The position numbers and the translations under genes are program-made. This document shows positions 6,840 through 29,600 of a stretch of 37,515 bases of DNA, one piece after another. The first letter of the stretch is position 1, and every line of letters begins with the position of its first letter. Source of the DNA: Gammaproteobacteria bacterium (GTDB lineage Bacteria; Pseudomonadota; Gammaproteobacteria; SG8-11); the NCBI GenBank assembly GCA_013151345.1, contig JAADIM010000022.1, forward strand, positions 1-37,515, given 5' to 3'. A model generated the notes under the pieces. The model was not told the origin of the DNA. It saw only the letters and a list, made by a program, of their open reading frames with translations, and ran no database searches.

Positions 6840-7841
6840 CTAAGTCGCATTACTGTACTTTTCTTTCGTTCGGTTTTCCCACATTTGTTTTGCGAGTGCT
6901 TCAGCCTCTTCGATGCTGTTTGCTTTGCCCATCATTTTAAGTGTGATGGCCGTGGTGCCGATGACAGAGCCTGTACCATACTCGTATTCGATTTCACCGC
7001 GCCATAGCGCGATTAAATTGGCGATATCCAGAGTGTCATCTTTGACGTGGCGTTGTTTAAACATCGGTGGCCATTCTTCATCCATCATTTTGCCATCGTG
7101 GACACTTTGCACCAAGCATTTCATATCGGGGTTGCGTTCAATTTCTCCGCCATCACCTTTTACCACCGCCATATGGGGTTGCTTTAATATTAGTCCGGCT
7201 TGTTGATGGGTTGGGTGGTAGCCTGGGTGAAAGATGCCTTGCATCATGTACGGTGCATTTAATGGGTTGATCATGCGCGACAGGGTATGTACTGGGGATC
7301 GCAAGCCTAATATGGGTCGTAGTTGAATAATCTGGTGTAGTTTGGGGCACAGGTGTTCCAGATCCATGTAAGCGAAATTGTCTTGTTCGATGGCTTTTTT
7401 TGCTTCGTCAAACGTGGTTGAGACATTGAGTCCTAATTTTTGCAGCACGTCTTTGGTATAAATTCGACCATCGGTATGGCCGCTGGCACCGTGCATGAAA
7501 ATACGTACGCCGTTTTCGGCAAATAATAATGCGGTTAGAATAAACCAGGGGAGGTGGCGGCGTTTTCCGGCATAGGAAGACCAGTCCAGATCAATGTTAA
7601 TGTTGTTCTCGGCTGTCTTGAGAAAATCGCGTACGGCGCGCACAAAGCCGGCGACTTCTTCCGCAGTTTCTTCTTTGACGCGTAATAACATCAAGTAGGC
7701 GCCCAATTGTTCGGGTGTGACCTGTTCGTTGAGTATCATTGAAAAGGTGGTATACGCTTCTTCTTCAGTATATGAGCGTGATCCGTTTTTTCCTTTGCCA
7801 AGGATGCGGATGTATTGGGCGAATGGGTGTTCTTCGTACAT
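6840..7841 (-). CDS. TrpD2/YbiB-like phosphoribosyltransferase-fold protein inside the dsr operon
   Basis: A 333-aa protein of the anthranilate-phosphoribosyltransferase fold but of the YbiB/TrpD2 branch. It starts 'EEHPFAQYIRILGKGKNGSR', has the helical TrpD N-domain ('LGAYLMLLRVKEETAEEVAG') and lacks the canonical PRPP/anthranilate GTGGD motif, which here reads 'HGASGHTDGR'. E. coli YbiB binds nucleic acid and has no shown transferase activity. I chose ATG 7841, preceded by AAGGAA at 7-bp spacing, because the longer reading to 7898 would run into the heptamer repeat. It lies between dsrP and dsrN on the same strand, so it is likely co-transcribed. That position is not part of the classic A. 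vinosum order. Function unproven. Confidence 0.85.
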   Translation of the reverse strand: MYEEHPFAQYIRILGKGKNGSRSYTEEEAYTTFSMILNEQVTPEQLGAYLMLLRVKEETAEEVAGFVRAVRDFLKTAENNINIDLDWSSYAGKRRHLPWFILTALLFAENGVRIFMHGASGHTDGRIYTKDVLQKLGLNVSTTFDEAKKAIEQDNFAYMDLEHLCPKLHQIIQLRPILGLRSPVHTLSRMINPLNAPYMMQGIFHPGYHPTHQQAGLILKQPHMAVVKGDGGEIERNPDMKCLVQSVHDGKMMDEEWPPMFKQRHVKDDTLDIANLIALWRGEIEYEYGTGSVIGTTAITLKMMGKANSIEEAEALAKQMWENRTKEKYSNAT

Positions 7842-7861
7842 GAGTGTTCCTTGTATTTGGT

Positions 7862-7931
7862 GCTGAGTGCTAAGTTCTAAGTGCTCAGTTCTTAGCACTC
7901 AGCACTTAGCACTTATCACTTAGCACTTATA
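7862..7931. repeat. Palindrome plus heptamer repeats between dsrP and the TrpD2-like gene
   Basis: GCTGAGTGCTAAG (7862-7874) is exactly inverted at 7891-7903. This is followed by near-identical heptamers AGCACTT at 7901, 7908, 7915 (one change) and 7922. It would form a stem-loop in the dsrP-to-TrpD2 intercistronic RNA, so it may attenuate or stabilise. The heptamer array looks prone to slippage. Confidence 0.85.
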
Positions 7932-7935
7932 AAAA

Positions 7936-9183
7936 CTAAACAGCTACTTTTCCTTCTGCTTCTGTAACTGGTTTAGCTTTATGATGCGGGTCTGCGAGGG
8001 CATTGTCCAGACTCAGTGGCAGGAAGCGTAATATTTTAATGGCGATGGTGACCATAATCAGGGCGATGGCGACACCACCGATACCCAGCGCGATTTCAGG
8101 TAGGCTAGGGGTGTATTGGCTGACTACACCATCAAAAAAGCTGCTGCTGACTTCGAATCCCGGGAACATGTTTAATGGGAATGCCTGGCCACCAATAATA
8201 ATACCGTACATTTGTGCCAGTCCGCCGACGATAACTAAGATACAACCGATGATGGTCCAGATAGGGGCGTCCTTTGTTACTCGGCTGTAGAAAAGAAATA
8301 ATGGGATCAAGCTGCCAAGTAAGATTTGCACCACCCAGAATAAAAAGGTGTAAATGCCACCACTGAGTAAAATAAATTGCTCAAATTCATGGTGTTCTGT
8401 GGCGTAAAGATTAGTGAGATGGTAAATCGCCACGATAAGTAATACGGCTGCAACAAACACACCGAGTAAATTCTTTAAACGTTGCACCACGATGCTGCCC
8501 AAAGGTCGGCCTGTGCCGGCATAACTGGCCATTAAGATCAGGATGAAAATTGCCATACCGAATGAGAAGGACATAAGGATGAACATTGGCGCCATGATGG
8601 CGGCATCATAGCCCTGGCGGGCGACCAGGAACCCGAAAATAGAGCCAGTACCCGTGGTCAGTATCAAGCGCCAGGTAAAGGCGACAAAACCCACCACCTT
8701 GCTGTATTTATTCATGCGGTGCTCCATCATCATCCACAGATAGACGGCGACGATGGCGATAAAGCCATTGTAGAGGATAATGTTCCAGGCGAAGATGGAT
8801 TTAAAATTATAGGCCGTCATCGCGACGATGAGTCGGTCAGGTCGACCCAGGTCTAATACTAATACACAAAGCCCGCCGACAAGCAGTGCGATCGCAACCA
8901 GTCCGGAAAGCGGTGCCAGCGGTTTATAGGCGGTTTTACCAAACACAGAGGCAATGGAGGCGACGTTAAGTGCACCAGAGGCGGCAACAATGAGAAAAAC
9001 GGCGAAAACATGCGGTATACCCCAAACAATTTGATTGGTCATGCCGGTCACATGATGGCCATTGTGTTCCATGTAATAGGTGGCGGCGAGGGCCAGCGCG
9101 ATAACAGTGCCTAAAAAACCCAACAGGATGTAGTAATTTACACTGTTGCCTTCGATCTCTCTGTAGTGAATTTTTTTTATCAT
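7936..9183 (-). CDS. dsrP: DsrP, NrfD-like quinone-interacting membrane subunit
   Basis: 415 aa with about ten hydrophobic membrane spans, spread from 'YYILLGFLGTVIALALAATY' near residue 17 to 'IALGIGGVAIALIMVTIAIK' near residue 370. This is the NrfD/PsrC-type topology and the expected length. It is the quinone-facing integral subunit of DsrMKJOP, pairing with periplasmic ferredoxin DsrO. The start codon shares bases with the stop of dsrO (9183), indicating coupled translation. The C-terminus is a short, charged cytoplasmic tail. It lies directly downstream of dsrO in the operon. Confidence 0.95.
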   Translation of the reverse strand: MIKKIHYREIEGNSVNYYILLGFLGTVIALALAATYYMEHNGHHVTGMTNQIVWGIPHVFAVFLIVAASGALNVASIASVFGKTAYKPLAPLSGLVAIALLVGGLCVLVLDLGRPDRLIVAMTAYNFKSIFAWNIILYNGFIAIVAVYLWMMMEHRMNKYSKVVGFVAFTWRLILTTGTGSIFGFLVARQGYDAAIMAPMFILMSFSFGMAIFILILMASYAGTGRPLGSIVVQRLKNLLGVFVAAVLLIVAIYHLTNLYATEHHEFEQFILLSGGIYTFLFWVVQILLGSLIPLFLFYSRVTKDAPIWTIIGCILVIVGGLAQMYGIIIGGQAFPLNMFPGFEVSSSFFDGVVSQYTPSLPEIALGIGGVAIALIMVTIAIKILRFLPLSLDNALADPHHKAKPVTEAEGKVAV

Positions 9184-14792: not shown

Positions 14793-14834
14793 CAAACTGG
14801 ATCATCATTTTTTTGATGACGATGACCCAGTTTG
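14793..14834 (-). promoter_or_regulatory. Stem-loop directly after dsrC
   Basis: CAAACTGG (14793-14800) pairs with CCAGTTTG (14827-14834), and the inner TCATCA pairs with TGATGA, giving a long bulged hairpin that starts about 11 nt after the dsrC stop codon and ends 18 nt before dsrM. There is no clear U-tract on the far side, so it looks more like a 3'-stabilising or processing hairpin than a full terminator. That would fit a need for much more dsrC than dsrM transcript. Confidence 0.65.
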
Positions 14835-17656: not shown

Positions 17657-18964
17657 TTAGTTTGCCGCTTTGCGGTTTTTCCACTTTTCAGCTTCTGCAT
17701 CCCAATCATCCAGTCGTACATAGTTACTTGTGCGTGGATGGTTAATCATATGGGGGTCTGGGTCGATACCAACACCTTCCAGGAAGTTAACGAGACCGAT
17801 ACGATCAATGGTTTCACCTACACGCTCGTGTTCAAGTGCATTTTCAGCCCAGAAATCGATCGTCTCTTCAGCAAGCCCTGTCAGTTTTTCGTAATCTTCG
17901 TCTGTTTCCAGTTTCATGAATGGCACTATGACCGTGCCCATGGTGTCACCAATCTTTAGGGTACGTTTGCCGCCGAGTAACACCGTTACACCTTTATCTT
18001 TACCGGGTGAGAGCGCTTTTGTCATTACGTTGATGCAATGCATACAACGAACGCAGTTTCGGTTGTCGACGTCCAATGTATTATCATCGTTGAGTGACAA
18101 TGCATTGGTAGGACAACGGCTGACTACGTTATCTATTATATTTTTACGGCCTTTTTCAGCAACGATTTTTTTGACTTCTTCCTGATCGACCTGCATATCG
18201 TCGCGCCAGGTGCCAATAACCGCAAAGTCAGAGCGCTGTATGGAGTTCATGCAGTCATTAGGACATCCGGATACTTTGAATTTGAATTTGTAAGGCAGGG
18301 CGGGGCGATGCATATCGTCGAGGAAGTTATTAACTAATGAACGATGGACTTTCATTTCATTAGTACACGATTGTTCGCAACGGGCTGCGCCGACACAAGA
18401 CATACCTGTTCTGACGCAAGGGCCAGCACCACCGAGGTCCCAACCGTATTCGTTAATTTCATCAAAAAAGTGCTGTGTCTTTTCTGTCGTGGTGCCAATG
18501 AACATGATGTTGCCGGTTTGACCGTGGAAAGCAATCAATCCTGAACCGTATTTGTTCCAGGAATCAGATAATTTTCGCAACATTTTAGTCGAATAATGAT
18601 TACCAGCGGGGGGTTGGACACGCAGGGTATGAAATTCTTTTGATTCGGGAAACATGGGTTTACCGTCATCACCCATTAATTCTGTAAACCTGGGAATAAT
18701 GCCGCCACCATAACCAAATACACTGACCGTGCCGCCTTTCCAGTAACCTATACGGGTTTTGTAAGAATGTTCTAATTGCCCCAGTAAATCGACTGACATG
18801 TTGTTGTCATGGGCGAGGCGTTTTAGGCCGGTTACAAAACTTGGCCATGGCCCATCAACTAGTTGATCGAGCATGGGTGTATCATGAAAAGGTTTTGTAG
18901 ACTTCTTGTCTTTCGGTAAGTAAGTAGCGTGTACTTCAGGGTTCTTTGGTTTTTGCCCAGCCAT
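17657..18964 (-). CDS. dsrA: DsrA, sulfite reductase alpha subunit (reverse type)
   Basis: 435 aa from ATG 18964 ('MAGQKPKNPEVHATYLPKD'). The reading frame extends 18 codons further up, but the shorter start agrees better with family length and has AGGAG upstream. The [4Fe-4S]/sirohaem ligands appear as 'SCVGAARCEQSC' (CX5C) and 'VSGCPNDCMNS' (CX3C), followed by a ferredoxin insert 'SRCPTNALS' and 'NCVRCMHCINVM'. It is the first gene of the dsr operon. Its promoter should lie in the 569-bp divergent gap to the TauD-like gene. Confidence 0.97.
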   Translation of the reverse strand: MAGQKPKNPEVHATYLPKDKKSTKPFHDTPMLDQLVDGPWPSFVTGLKRLAHDNNMSVDLLGQLEHSYKTRIGYWKGGTVSVFGYGGGIIPRFTELMGDDGKPMFPESKEFHTLRVQPPAGNHYSTKMLRKLSDSWNKYGSGLIAFHGQTGNIMFIGTTTEKTQHFFDEINEYGWDLGGAGPCVRTGMSCVGAARCEQSCTNEMKVHRSLVNNFLDDMHRPALPYKFKFKVSGCPNDCMNSIQRSDFAVIGTWRDDMQVDQEEVKKIVAEKGRKNIIDNVVSRCPTNALSLNDDNTLDVDNRNCVRCMHCINVMTKALSPGKDKGVTVLLGGKRTLKIGDTMGTVIVPFMKLETDEDYEKLTGLAEETIDFWAENALEHERVGETIDRIGLVNFLEGVGIDPDPHMINHPRTSNYVRLDDWDAEAEKWKNRKAAN

Positions 18965-19533
18965 CGGTATGTTTCTCCTAGATCCGAATTCGCGATTTCT
19001 GAACAGACTCTGCTTCATTCTTTACGTAGAAAGAAGAAGATCGCCTGCACAGTACCTATTATTGATCAATATACACAATTCGTTATGCAACAAGTTTAGT
19101 CAAGACTTTAGCCTCTTCCTAGTCACCAAAGGGGAGAGGTGTTCGTAGGGGCTTATATCCCATTGGTGATATACCCATTGCGCTAGCGGTTAATTTTCCT
19201 TATATAAAAGATATACTGTGTGTTTATCGCCACGGTTTTGTATATGTTGTAAATTGCGATTATTTTGAGTGTGATAATGTGATCTCCATCATGGGCACCT
19301 ATCTTTATTTTATGGCGTCCTTTGTCTGAGCATAGCGATTAGCCCAACTATAAGCCAGCTTGGCTCGCGCGACCATTAGTTCATATAGCTCATAAGTTCA
19401 TATAGCTCATAGCTCAATTAGCGCAACGTTTAGCTTAAAAAAACAGGCGATTTATTATTCGGTACACATTCTTACATATTGACCCTTTTTCATATATGGA
19501 TATAGTTAAGGGGCGAGAGGAGGGCTTACTTAA
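18965..19533. other. Divergent promoter region of dsrA and the TauD-like gene
   Basis: There is no credible ORF. This must hold the dsr operon promoter (leftward) and the promoter of the plus-strand module. AT-rich stretches such as TTATATAAAAGATATACTG (about 19199-19217) are present, but I cannot assign -10/-35 boxes or an operator with confidence. The 17-bp duplication at 19378-19411 lies inside it. Confidence 0.6.
19378..19411. repeat. Exact 17-bp tandem duplication
   Basis: AGTTCATATAGCTCATA occurs at 19378-19394 and again at 19395-19411 without change, about 120 bp before the TauD-like start. Position in a divergent promoter region means it could alter spacing of regulatory sites. Confidence 0.9.
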
Positions 19534-20445
19534 ATGTTAAGCCGACGTAGTGAGCGACATGCTGATCCATCCAATTCCTTTGATCTGAGTGATAATCGGT
19601 CATATCTGCTTTGGCGTGAGCGAAAATTGGCCAATTCACCTCAGTCTATTGGGCAAGTTATAATCAATGTTGAAAATATTAATGCATTAAACCCTATTGA
19701 AGTGCATGAAATTAAACAACGGTGCCAGTGGGCAAATATGGCGGTGTACCAATGTAGGCAATCTGAGTCTGTAGATCGTGAGGCTATTCGTGATTTAGGC
19801 AAACAGTTTGGCTTAAACCATCTTGATCGAAATATCCGTGCTGATGATGGCGGAATTTCAGCCTTACACGTCTCGACAATTCAACAAGCACACGAGTATA
19901 TACCGTACAGTAATCGTGCGATTAATTGGCATACAGATGGATATTACAACGAATTACATAAAAAAATCCGTGCAATGATTTTGCATTGTGTCTCACCGGC
20001 AGCCAGCGGCGGTGAAAATACGTTTGTGGACCATGAGATTTTGTATTTATTAATGCGAGATGAAAATCCTGCCTACATTACGGCGTTGATGCAGCCCGAT
20101 GCAATGACTATTCCTGCAAATATAGAAAATGGCGTCGAATTAAGGCCTGCACAATCAGGCCCGGTGTTTTCGATTGACCCACAATCCGGTCAGTTGCATA
20201 TGCGTTATACGGCAAGAACAAAATCGATCGAATGGAAAGCGGATAGCCTTGTTCAAGAAGCCGTTGAGTTTATCAAGGTGTTTTTAAGATCTGATTCATC
20301 TTTTATTCTCCGTCATCGGATGGCGGCTGGGCAAGGCCTGATTTGTAATAATGTGTTGCACAATCGCAGCGAATTTGTCGATGATGCCGAGTCTGACCAA
20401 CAACGGCTGGTTTATCGAGGTCGATTTTATGAACGCATCGAATAA
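19534..20445 (+). CDS. TauD/TfdA-family 2-oxoglutarate-dependent dioxygenase
   Basis: 303 aa. The Fe(II) facial triad is visible: H-x-D in 'NWHTDGYYN' (about H133/D135) and the distal His in 'NNVLHNRSEF' (about H276). It is followed by the 2-oxoglutarate-binding Arg in 'RLVYRGRF' (about R291). The central 'GGENTFVDHEIL' is typical of TauD and gamma-butyrobetaine hydroxylase relatives. TauD releases sulfite from taurine, but substrate residues cannot be read here, so an organosulfonate role is only a suggestion from the neighbours. It has a good GGAGG ribosome site and is the first gene of the plus-strand module divergent from dsrA. Confidence 0.85.
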   Translation: MLSRRSERHADPSNSFDLSDNRSYLLWRERKLANSPQSIGQVIINVENINALNPIEVHEIKQRCQWANMAVYQCRQSESVDREAIRDLGKQFGLNHLDRNIRADDGGISALHVSTIQQAHEYIPYSNRAINWHTDGYYNELHKKIRAMILHCVSPAASGGENTFVDHEILYLLMRDENPAYITALMQPDAMTIPANIENGVELRPAQSGPVFSIDPQSGQLHMRYTARTKSIEWKADSLVQEAVEFIKVFLRSDSSFILRHRMAAGQGLICNNVLHNRSEFVDDAESDQQRLVYRGRFYERIE

Positions 20446-20796: not shown

Positions 20797-21507
20797 ATGA
20801 CAAATAAATTTATATCTAACAACGAAGGGCTGGCGGATGCTGATAGCGCTGATGATGCAGTGACATCAACACGGCTGCTCGAGCAAAAAATTCTGGCTTA
20901 TGAAGATCAATTAAATGCGCTGCCAGCAGATGTCAATGCGGTGGAAAAGGGTGACATACAAATTAAAATGGGCGCGGCGTTGGCTGATCTGGAGCGTGGT
21001 GAAGAGGCGTTCGCTGTTGCGCGTGAGGCATTTGACAGTTTGGTAAAAGCGGAAGAATGGGAAGAAGCGGTGCATGCTTGTAAAATCATGTTTCTTGCTG
21101 ACCAGGAACTGTCGCTTGCCGCACTAGGACAGGGTGTCTGGCTAAGCGTGACATTTCCGATTAATCCGGAACTGACGGTTGCCATGCTTGAACATATTGT
21201 TGATGAAACGCCAGAAGAGTCTGATGGTGCTGCGATTGCTGCCGCTGTTGCGCATTATATTGCAGATAGTCGGGCAGAGGGTAAAGTTCATGAAGAATTA
21301 ACCTTTTTTACTAATAATTTATTCGCAACCGTTGCGCGTCGTCACAGTGGTGTGAATAGCCAGGAGAAATTTAGTTTTTGGGTTGATAAACTGGAACTGA
21401 ATGATCCGGAAAAGTTTTTACCGAGATTACGTAATGTCGTTGATGTGATGGTACAGGATGATTGGTGGGTGGATAGAGAAGCTATTTGGGCTAAACTTCC
21501 ACATTAA
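20797..21507 (+). CDS. Helical-repeat (TPR-like) protein
   Basis: 236 aa, acidic and Ala/Glu-rich, predicted almost all helical. Segments such as 'KMGAALADLERGEEAFAVAR' (about residues 54-73) and 'EAFDSLVKAEEWEEAVHACK' resemble TPR pairs, though the repeat is irregular. No signal peptide or membrane span. Probably a protein-interaction scaffold for the neighbouring module. The sole near-terminal motif is aromatic ('QDDWWVDREAIW'). I do not recognise a named family. Confidence 0.65.
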   Translation: MTNKFISNNEGLADADSADDAVTSTRLLEQKILAYEDQLNALPADVNAVEKGDIQIKMGAALADLERGEEAFAVAREAFDSLVKAEEWEEAVHACKIMFLADQELSLAALGQGVWLSVTFPINPELTVAMLEHIVDETPEESDGAAIAAAVAHYIADSRAEGKVHEELTFFTNNLFATVARRHSGVNSQEKFSFWVDKLELNDPEKFLPRLRNVVDVMVQDDWWVDREAIWAKLPH

Positions 21508-21621: not shown

Positions 21622-22287
21622 ATGCTTTGGAAAGACAGCGACAAAAACACAACGAATGCTACTGATAGTGTGTTGGATCTAGTGTTCAGCATCAGATGCA
21701 AAAGTTTACCTTCGGACCATGCGTTTCCGTTGTCACAAGCATTACAGCAGTTGTTGCCCTGGTTTGTTGAAGAAAAACACGCCGGGATGCATATTGTACA
21801 TATTATGACATCAGGTCATGGGTGGACACGTCCCACTGGTGATGGTGCTTTGCTACTACCCTCGCGACGAACCAAATTTATTTTGCGACTTCCAAAACAT
21901 CGCGTAGATGATGCCAGGACAACATTGACTGGCAAGACACTTGATGTGGATGGGCATGCATTAACAATCGATAGTGCGTTGACACGCCCATTGAGTGATA
22001 TTACAACTGTGATCGCGCGTTATATCGTTACCGATGGTAACCAAGAAGACGTATTTACACAGGATGTAATTAATCAAATGCATTCGATGGGAGTCAAGCC
22101 CAATAAATTGTTATGTGGTGTTGAAAAAACAATAATGATAGACAAGCAGTTAATCGCAACACGTAGCGTGATGGTGGCGGATATGAGCGAGGAAGAGTCG
22201 TTGTTATTACAACAAAATGGTTTAGGCCCATACAGAGAGTATGGTTGTGGTTTGTTCATACCACAGAAAGATATTAATGAAATATAG
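21622..22287 (+). CDS. Stand-alone Cas6/Cmx6-like RAMP endoribonuclease
   Basis: 221 aa. The pattern matches the MYXAN-type Cas6 family (Cas6/Cmx6): an N-terminal ferredoxin-like half with 'LPSDHAFPLSQALQQLLPWF', where H33 is in the place of the usual catalytic His; a middle 'RRTKFILRLPKHRVDDA'; and a C-terminal glycine-rich RAMP loop G-L-G-x5-G-C-G at 200-210 ('QNGLGPYREYGCGLFIPQK'), a perfect GhGx5GhG. Cas6 proteins cut CRISPR precursor RNA at hairpins. No array and no other cas gene exist in the window, so the target here must be something else or lie elsewhere. It lies between the helical protein and the DsrC-like gene, about 127 bp before the latter. Family call firm, role open. Confidence 0.85.
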   Translation: MLWKDSDKNTTNATDSVLDLVFSIRCKSLPSDHAFPLSQALQQLLPWFVEEKHAGMHIVHIMTSGHGWTRPTGDGALLLPSRRTKFILRLPKHRVDDARTTLTGKTLDVDGHALTIDSALTRPLSDITTVIARYIVTDGNQEDVFTQDVINQMHSMGVKPNKLLCGVEKTIMIDKQLIATRSVMVADMSEEESLLLQQNGLGPYREYGCGLFIPQKDINEI

Positions 22288-22413: not shown

Positions 22414-22755
22414 ATGTCATTAGAATCAAACGGTAAAACAATCGAAACAACTGCCAGCGGATTTCTGGTTAATATTGAAGATTGGGATGAATCTGTCGCA
22501 TCAGCTATTGCAGAAAAAGAAAGCCTGGCGCTGACGGATGAACATTGGGATTTGATGAATTATTTACGCGATGAATTTATCAATAATGGTGGAAACCAAC
22601 CAAATACGCGCAAGATGGTTAAGGCTATGGAAGAAAAATGGCCGGATAAAAAAGTGGATTCAAAATATCTGTATATATTATTTCCAGGCGATCCTTCCAA
22701 GCAAGGGGGGCGTATTGCAGGTTTGCCCGAGAGTCGAAGAAAAGGCGGGTATTAA
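22414..22755 (+). CDS. RspA-like DsrC/TusE homologue lacking both cysteines
   Basis: 113 aa with the full DsrC fold: family start 'MSLESNGKTIETTASGFLVN', 'EHWDLMNYLRDEF' near residue 50 and a C-terminal arm 'LFPGDPSKQGGRIAGLPESR'. The arm residue that is Cys-B in DsrC is Gly here, and the penultimate Cys-A is absent ('KGGY'). Members with no cysteine are called RspA and are proposed to be regulators rather than sulfur carriers. Compare dsrC at 14845-15177, which has both. A strong AGGAG box is 5 bp before the ATG. It is directly downstream of the Cas6-like gene and 14 bp upstream of the sulfurtransferase. Confidence 0.9.
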   Translation: MSLESNGKTIETTASGFLVNIEDWDESVASAIAEKESLALTDEHWDLMNYLRDEFINNGGNQPNTRKMVKAMEEKWPDKKVDSKYLYILFPGDPSKQGGRIAGLPESRRKGGY

Positions 22756-27796: not shown

Positions 27797-28837
27797 CTAA
27801 AACAACAATTCAATTTGCTTTTCAAGGAGAGAGCGTTCTTGTCTATATAAAGCAAGGATTTCCTGGGCTTTTTCGTGCCATCTATTTTTCCCGGAGTCAC
27901 ATGCGCGGTACAAAGGCGCTGTATCATTGGATTTTATCCAGCTATTGTATGCGTCATATGCTTCCGGGAACAGTGTTTTTCGTATGCCTGAAAAATTAGC
28001 GAAATAAAAATGCAGCGATGGTTTATAATCACGTTCCAGCAACGTAGGTAAGGTATAGATACAATCGGCTAGTAGATCACGTACTGCTCTAACTAAAATT
28101 TCAGCTTTTGATCGGGCAAGGGTAATCAGCATTTCCTCCCACTGCTTTCCCAATATATTGCCTGCTTTAATTTCACCTACTTCATGGTAGAACATAGATT
28201 TAGTTTCTTGATGTACCATTTTATCTAAAATGTGTTCAATATTGCTGTCGCCGCCATATAGTTCTATTGCGCGTGCCATTGGTACATCTGGTTTTTTTTT
28301 CCATTGCCACTCTTCAATTTTCTCCCAAATAAACCGACGCACAGACTCTTGTCTTATGAAAATAGTTGATCCTTGTAACATAGCTGGTGGTGCAGTCAGA
28401 TCTCTGGCATATTCACGCGAACTTACTGCAAGCGTGTAGTCTTCGATAATGTTTTTCTTTTGCAATTTTCCGAGAAAGAAATGTGGTTTGCTAAATAGCC
28501 CATATCCACTGCTATAAATGTACCCTTCTTTTTGTATGATTTCATTGATCGCTGTTGAATCAAACGGGCCTAAGTCTTTGTTGTTTATTCTTAGTGATAA
28601 ATATTCTTCATCAGGATTTAGTGATGTTATTTCTTGCCACATAGATTCGCGATCGACAAGCCATTCCCCAAGTTCGCTTTTTGGTAATGGTTGCGACAGC
28701 GGGATCTGCTGTTCCCATCTATAATACTCGCGCATTTTAAGTAAAAAAGTGCACATACTATAATTGCCAGCATGATAAGCATCAGATATGTGGCAATTAT
28801 TTTGAACTGTGTCTGAGAGTTGGTTTAAATTAAACAT
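27797..28837 (-). CDS. Conserved hypothetical protein, possibly Sfum_1244 family
   Basis: 346 aa, soluble. The start ('NQLSDTVQNNCHISDAYHAG', then 'YSMCTFLLKMREYYRWEQ') resembles the NCBI family named after Sfum_1244, which is widespread but of unknown function. I am recalling that name rather than checking it. No catalytic motif is obvious. Helix-rich middle and end. It is on the same strand as the Sel1 protein gene and may be co-transcribed. The gap to the 196-aa gene (divergent) is about 170 bp. Confidence 0.75.
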   Translation of the reverse strand: MFNLNQLSDTVQNNCHISDAYHAGNYSMCTFLLKMREYYRWEQQIPLSQPLPKSELGEWLVDRESMWQEITSLNPDEEYLSLRINNKDLGPFDSTAINEIIQKEGYIYSSGYGLFSKPHFFLGKLQKKNIIEDYTLAVSSREYARDLTAPPAMLQGSTIFIRQESVRRFIWEKIEEWQWKKKPDVPMARAIELYGGDSNIEHILDKMVHQETKSMFYHEVGEIKAGNILGKQWEEMLITLARSKAEILVRAVRDLLADCIYTLPTLLERDYKPSLHFYFANFSGIRKTLFPEAYDAYNSWIKSNDTAPLYRACDSGKNRWHEKAQEILALYRQERSLLEKQIELLF

Positions 28838-29009
28838 AGTGTATGATACCTGTATTTCTAGTTTAGCATTGTCCCTATGTCTTGAGGCAACGCTAAAATT
28901 AATGAGGAAAATAGGCTATCATTAGTAATATTAATCACTATGTTAATATTATTATGGTTGATATCAATCTATAATTAATTGCTAAGTATTTAGGTTAAGA
29001 GTTTTCAAT

Positions 29010-29600
29010 ATGGCAGTTCGCATAAAATCAAAATGGCATCGCTCCTCACGCAGTGAGCGCAATATTAAAGGCTCAAATGAGTCTAAAACACTGAAAGATT
29101 TATCAAGTGTCATAGCATTTAATATGTGGAAACTCGTCCAGAATGTTTTTAAACATATGGAAGGGGAAGGTTTCAGATTTGCTAAAGATGAACAGGTGAT
29201 TGCTGTGTTGACCGAGTTGCTGGCCTACGGCGTGCATAGTGTTGATCGATTAATTTATGAGAAAGTGGATGAAAAACAGCGTGGGCCTTTTGTAATAGCG
29301 TTAGCAAAAGACCTGGCAAAAACAATGGAAGGTAATCAAATTGATTTGTTGGGTGAGGGTGACTATGTTGATAATTTTATCAATACGCTCAATCAACGCT
29401 TTGAAGCGTATTCAGAATGTTCTTTTGAAAACAAGCAGCCTGGTTATGAATTTAATCGTTATTTGGCACGGAATATTTCTGACATTATGTCCGAGACAGA
29501 TGACAAATGGGTTGTTGAACAAGTAATGGACATAGAAATACCAGACCTATTTCCAAAATTGAAAAGACTGGTGGAAGATGTGTTGGGCGCAAAAGACTAA
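29010..29600 (+). CDS. Hypothetical helical protein
   Basis: 196 aa. The N-terminus is very basic ('MAVRIKSKWHRSSRSERNIK'), followed by helices such as 'LTELLAYGVHSVDRLIYEKV'. There is no membrane span or signal. It ends in a conserved-looking 'EQVMDIEIPDLFPKLKRLVE'. The family is not recognised; the basic tail suggests nucleic-acid or membrane contact but nothing proves it. It is divergent from the gene at 27797. Confidence 0.7.
   Translation: MAVRIKSKWHRSSRSERNIKGSNESKTLKDLSSVIAFNMWKLVQNVFKHMEGEGFRFAKDEQVIAVLTELLAYGVHSVDRLIYEKVDEKQRGPFVIALAKDLAKTMEGNQIDLLGEGDYVDNFINTLNQRFEAYSECSFENKQPGYEFNRYLARNISDIMSETDDKWVVEQVMDIEIPDLFPKLKRLVEDVLGAKD

Follow-up and report, generated by a model that had tools for sequence, protein, structure and literature searches.

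A Cas6/Cmx6-family protein accompanies the oxidative Dsr pathway in Gammaproteobacteria, very probably outside CRISPR-Cas

The Cas6 family is, to our knowledge, known only as an enzyme cutting CRISPR RNA, and the locus described here raises the question of what a member of that family does among genes for sulfur oxidation. The window, meaning the whole 37.5-kb stretch of gammaproteobacterial DNA that was analysed, encodes at 21622-22287 (+) a 221 aa protein with the glycine-rich loop G200-L-G-x5-G208-C-G210 and a histidine, H33, as the original prediction had described. The genes dsrA to dsrP lie to its left, and those for a DsrC-like protein, a rhodanese and an MsrB-like protein to its right; the neighbours are therefore DSR and sulfur genes on both sides. 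The description of the gene as stand-alone is also borne out, with no CRISPR array found in the window and no cas genes adjoining.

The assignment to the Cas6/Cmx6 family, which had been made from a sequence pattern, is correct, as PF09559, TIGR02807, PADLOC, the predicted fold and the motif all agree. PF09559 matches the protein at E 1.1e-54 (185.8 bits, cut-off 26.7) and has matches in 0/14 control genomes, while the NCBIfam model for type I-MYXAN Cas6/Cmx6, TIGR02807, scores it at 105.1 bits, just over the cut-off of 98.85, and matches 40/40 aligned relatives at E ≤ 1e-3; PADLOC makes the same Cas6 call. An AlphaFold model built with 40 homologs has a mean pLDDT of 90.6 and a pTM of 0.87, and its top Foldseek match in the PDB is Cas6 of a type I-B CRISPR-associated transposon (CAST) (TM 0.79/0.82, E 1e-15), with Cas6 of Pyrococcus and others ranking next. 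Foldseek gave no non-Cas6 fold in the PDB copy searched that matched better, and a viral fold library gave no match.

A protein of this family could be an orphan crRNA-processing enzyme serving CRISPR arrays elsewhere in the genome, as may be argued from the NCBI name of the family, that of a CRISPR protein, and from a solo cas1f on another contig of the window's own genome (contig C11, L074:5768-9177, cas1f at 6993-7958). That 9.5-kb contig also encodes a WYL regulator and a Fic-like protein, and has no array and no other cas genes. The genome itself has one PF09559 gene with no second match, no Csy4 and 0 matches to the I-MYXAN repeat core GATGCCNNNNGGCGTTGA; because the assembly is 68.5% complete these absences are weak evidence, and the argument is carried by the relatives. 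Among 113 related genomes of one class, taken almost one per family, Cas1 is present in 16/42 with the protein and 20/71 without it (p = 0.30), which is no association, and the orphan-enzyme reading is contradicted by seven single-contig genomes in which the protein is present and Cas1 absent (G086, G038, G084, G048, G023, G112 and G310). The Cas3 core model gave only sub-threshold helicase background in 11 genomes including those seven, and the I-MYXAN repeat is absent from those of the seven that were scanned.

The surroundings of the gene give the same picture. Across 126 dsr-type loci, 1.98 Mb in all, the array scan gave nothing credible; its five array-like candidates are repeats of different kinds, of exact period or low copy number, and the I-MYXAN repeat is not among them. 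As a positive control, the same scan recovered arrays near the CRISPR Cmx6 genes of cyanobacterial plasmids, with GATGCCNNNNGGCGTTGA or close variants as their common repeat core, and these control loci show a cas operon where dsr-type loci show dsr genes, tauD and rspA. Among the 113 relatives the repeat core forms an array in G004 only, with a single match in three other genomes, and G004 has a second, true CRISPR Cmx6 on a contig with Cas1 and the ten repeats. Type I-MYXAN cas genes with an array but without their own cas6, which the dsr-linked protein could then have served, were thus found in no relative. The separate Cmx6 of G004, together with the missing arrays and the missing Cas1 association, makes the orphan enzyme highly improbable. 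Cargo of a mobile element was also considered and rejected, as no relative occurs in phage records or viral contigs; the plasmid matches are Cmx6 genes of cyanobacteria, nearly all within CRISPR loci. The protein is thus, on the evidence of the genomes compared, very probably a CRISPR-independent, dsr-bound Cas6.

Two cases met in this comparison deserve mention on their own account. G004 holds both versions of the gene (L072 on contig C146 and L073 on contig C420), with Cas1 and the array of ten repeats next to the CRISPR Cmx6 and rspA next to the dsr-type Cas6, and offers a natural pair for comparison. On plasmid pGMOR1 of Gloeobacter morelensis (L196) a Cmx6-family gene is surrounded by genes for hypothetical proteins, a cupin and a PAPS-reductase-family protein. 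Neither cas3 nor cas8 is annotated beside it, and the plasmid may offer a further non-standard setting for Cas6.

The tie to dsr proved stronger than could be foreseen from the window. Counting as true (oxidative-type) DsrA those proteins at least 57% identical to the window's DsrA, a Cas6-family homolog was found in 42 of the 113 relatives, DsrA in 41 and both in 39, so that DsrA occurs in 39/42 genomes with the protein vs 2/71 without it (Fisher p = 2.6e-24), the co-occurrence spanning about 40 families. There are five exceptions, three genomes with cas6 only (G071, G097 and G004) and two with DsrA only, and they look like assembly gaps: in G071 and G097 cas6 lies on short contigs with tauD, the contig ending before the expected dsrA (the dsrA promoter palindrome is present near the contig end in G097); G004, cas6-only by the DsrA count, has a DsrB fragment; and the assemblies of the two DsrA-only genomes reach 78% and 81% completeness. 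The count was repeated on a second, independently drawn sample of the phylum (397 genomes, almost all with a completeness of 90% or more). PF09559 turned up in six, all of them Gammaproteobacteria and exactly the six Gammaproteobacteria with DsrA, a set that includes the window's own genome, with G078 common to both samples; the 33 DsrA genomes of other classes in this draw are all without PF09559. Relatives are encoded by 563 stretches with one common peptide pattern, and the protein is retained in genomes of 1.1 and 1.4 Mb. By this near-perfect co-occurrence the oxidative (reverse) Dsr pathway has, in the Gammaproteobacteria examined, a fixed companion in the Cas6-family protein.

In the usual gene order, tauD, cas6 and rspA point rightwards and the dsr operon (dsrA to dsrP) diverges from them to the left. 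The window has dsrA as the first gene of its operon (17657-19018, −; the true start is probably near 18967 or later), and the divergent operon begins with tauD, which encodes a TauD/TfdA-family dioxygenase (19534-20445, +), and continues with a gene for an all-helical, TPR-like 236 aa protein of no Pfam family (20797-21507, +), then cas6, then an rspA-like gene (22414-22755, +) for a DsrC-family protein without C-terminal cysteines. The 236 aa protein is encoded directly upstream of cas6 in many lineages and is missing in others; it was considered as a Cas11-like subunit, but the PADLOC match was weak (Cas11e, E 1e-4) and probably spurious, and its structure is predicted to be a helical repeat of TPR type, without significant similarity to any PDB entry. 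Further to the right, at 27797-29600, the window has a divergent gene pair for a DUF6866 protein and an unnamed 196 aa protein, which recurs beside many gammaproteobacterial dsr-cas6 loci.

Across loci, dsr genes lie upstream of cas6 in 70 of the 84 with at least 6 kb of upstream sequence, and a DsrC-like gene is next after it in 92 of the 110 with at least 900 bases downstream. No cysteine is present in the last 16 residues of 94/99 RspA-type products, while two are present in 68/69 products of operon dsrC. In four further Gammaproteobacteria (G292, G310, G326 and G415), dsrA is directly divergent from cas6 and a DsrC-like gene. At three unlinked loci (L121, L064 and L101) cas6 and rspA stay together although dsr is elsewhere, and this suggests that the two function as a pair; in Thiotrichaceae such as Thiomargarita and Marithrix even this link is lost. 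Oxidative dsr loci of other proteobacterial classes, which are without cas6, have dsrA divergent from tauD followed by a siroheme-synthase-like gene, and tauD therefore seems to be the older neighbour of dsrA and cas6 with rspA a gammaproteobacterial addition. Six such loci (L184-L189) have the divergent dsrA and tauD, with a small protein and the siroheme-synthase-like gene in L185, L187 and L189.

The pairing with RspA, a member of the DsrC family, could also be read to mean that the two proteins process RNA of a more general kind, for instance a tRNA or a small RNA needed under sulfur stress. TusE, a relative of RspA, works in tRNA thiolation, and some Thiotrichaceae and others have the gene away from dsr; against this, the gene is strictly limited to dsr genomes, and a general RNA substrate is considered quite improbable.

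What the protein itself has kept was judged by comparing 125 dsr-type with 10 CRISPR-type sequences. Both types have His33 (123/125 and 8/10), Arg89 (125/125 and 10/10), Gln197 and the G-rich loop, in which G200, G202, G208 and G210 are near-invariant in the alignment of relatives; His57 is found in 118/125 dsr-type sequences. In the AlphaFold model His33, the candidate catalytic residue, stands at the start of helix 1 (residues 34-44). Conserved in the dsr type only are Trp3, Trp47, the GNGWxRP loop at 65-71 (GHGWTRP in the window), Glu142, Lys162, Gly166 and Lys216, and the loop before Gly166 is shorter than in the CRISPR type; in the dsr-type sequences that diverge most, L181 for example, the GNGW loop is missing. 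The loops are the parts most unlike CRISPR Cmx6, and they may mean a loss or change of RNA recognition. A quick, unrooted maximum-likelihood tree separates the CRISPR-type rows, without exception, from the dsr type by a branch with an SH-aLRT of 95. Other Cas6 families are CRISPR enzymes, and we infer on this ground that the dsr type was derived from a CRISPR Cas6.

These residues bear on two further readings. The protein may be a regulator that binds a hairpin without cutting it, protecting the RNA or controlling its translation, in agreement with the intact fold, with the shorter loop before residue 166 and with the fact that many Cas6 proteins remain bound to their product; binding alone, however, would not need His33 and His57, which are kept in 123/125 and 118/125 sequences, and a non-cutting binder is considered unlikely. 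Alternatively, the RNA work may be lost and the protein may act as a partner in sulfur transfer, for example as a scaffold for RspA, DsrC or DsrEFH. The strict tie to dsr and rspA suits such a role, and the dsr-only Trp3, Trp47, GNGWxRP and Glu142 could form a protein contact, but the almost exceptionless retention of His33, Arg89, Gln197 and the G-rich loop, all common with CRISPR Cmx6, speaks against it and leaves the protein partner a doubtful proposal.

If the protein still acts on RNA, a target may be sought in the dsr operon itself. Upstream of dsrA lies a bipartite element, consisting of the palindromic E1 (TATATCCC-N4-GGGATATA, in the window TATATCACCAATGGGATATA at 19154-19173, −) and then E2 (19122-19141, −) at a fixed spacing, with a -10-like box, TAAACT, at a conserved distance from E1 (19093-19098, −). 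The whole arrangement (window 19093-19173, −) is seen upstream of dsrA in about 80 gammaproteobacterial loci. In 78/83 loci E1 is followed by the -10-like box, whose start lies 73 to 76 bases past that of E1 in 76 of those 78, vs 18% of background windows. As a -10-like box at a fixed distance is the geometry of a promoter, E1/E2 is most probably an untranscribed DNA operator, and a dsrA leader hairpin was rejected as Cas6 substrate, since the E1 palindrome precedes the box and is probably outside the transcript. The element remains at dsrA where cas6 sits elsewhere (G112 and G102), and is at background score in six loci of other classes without cas6. RspA is a candidate for the regulator acting on E1/E2. 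Folding of the dsrA leaders showed no unusual degree of structure (mean z −0.71), and a search of the window against Rfam gave no match.

Hairpins between dsr genes were the other candidate. A hairpin with a stem of about 16 bp lies between dsrC and dsrM (14793-14834, −) and is a candidate structured RNA, though a link to Cas6 is not supported. Perfect stems of at least 8 bp are present in 59% of dsrC-dsrM gaps and 33% of dsrA-dsrB gaps, as opposed to 1% in shuffles, so these hairpins are real. They are also found in loci without cas6 (dsrC-dsrM 2/6, dsrA-dsrB 1/6, the six loci being too few to separate the groups), are lacking in some loci with cas6, and have no obvious common sequence, not even within one genome; as far as six loci allow a judgement, they are not specific to genomes with the gene, and they were set aside as a Cas6 substrate. 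The proposal that a repurposed Cas6 processes sulfur-gene mRNA or a small RNA thus finds support in its first part, a stand-alone Cas6-family protein embedded in a dsr locus, while two candidate signals lend no support to a specific dsr-mRNA substrate.

Taken together, the findings make it probable that this Cas6-family protein has taken on a new, RNA-related role in sulfur metabolism. The best explanation is a non-CRISPR Cas6, fixed with RspA as a companion of the rDsr pathway, that acts as an RNA-cutting regulator of dsr, and we give this joint reading an even chance of being right. In it the protein would still bind one or a few structured RNAs and cut them as Cas6 cuts CRISPR repeats, by a metal-independent single cut at a hairpin; the cleavage would set the levels of dsr proteins post-transcriptionally, and RspA, DsrC-like and without the sulfur-carrying cysteines, would be a possible sensor or partner. 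This cutting mechanism, taken by itself, is put forward tentatively, at somewhat less than even likelihood. Also possible, though we lean slightly against it, is that a Cas6 ribonuclease was taken over once, early in Gammaproteobacteria, and became with RspA a fixed post-transcriptional regulator of dsr working on non-CRISPR RNA. Counted against the explanation are that no RNA substrate was found, that the remodelled loops may point to lost or altered RNA recognition and that the dsr loci of other proteobacterial classes manage without cas6. The dsr genes of A. vinosum are co-transcribed, dsrC and dsrS having additional promoters (PMC3368242), and the dsrEFH and dsrC transcripts nevertheless exceed that of dsrA (PMC3397948), so that segment-wise control of dsr does exist. 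A dsr-regulating ribonuclease is plausible because of this uneven expression, the kept candidate catalytic residues and the pairing with RspA.

No paper linking Cas6 with dsr was found among the open-access papers searched (subscription papers lay outside the search), and a cas6-like gene is absent from the dsr gene lists in those read. The protein family was already known, but that it is firmly linked to an energy pathway seems not to have been described. TIGR02807, an 'equivalog' model for a CRISPR protein, scores this dsr-linked non-CRISPR protein above its cut-off, and genome annotations will therefore label it CRISPR-associated. Several hundred genomes thus have a gene that is named for CRISPR but is linked by the data to sulfur oxidation; genome surveys that score it as CRISPR-Cas are misled, and surveys of the Dsr pathway miss a companion gene that in Gammaproteobacteria equals dsrA in conservation. 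The case also allows a direct test of whether enzymes of CRISPR RNA processing can become metabolic regulators, and if the proposal is true, a CRISPR-derived enzyme would be a riboregulator of a core energy pathway.

In comparing the protein to known systems, the closest in setting are the rDsr accessory genes dsrR, dsrS and rspA (the last of which we take to belong among them), which are likewise dsr-linked and without a settled catalytic role, some being proposed regulators; none of them encodes a Cas6-fold protein. The sources for these accessory genes are PMC11406059 for DsrR and PMC3368242 for DsrS. The closest structure is the CAST Cas6 mentioned above (PDB 8fcj chain B and 8fcu chain B; TM 0.79 to 0.82, profile E 1e-25), which is about 23% identical to the 221 aa protein, belongs to a Cascade transposition complex, and has Asn at the position of the dsr-type His33. 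Type I-MYXAN Cas6/Cmx6, with examples on cyanobacterial plasmids, has the same fold, length, G-rich loop, candidate catalytic His and Arg89; however, the dsr-linked cas6 has no adjoining cas3, cas8, cas7, cas5, cas1 or cas2 and no array, and its product falls on the other side of the tree, having gained the GNGWxRP loop and an N-terminal Trp and shortened the loop before Gly166.
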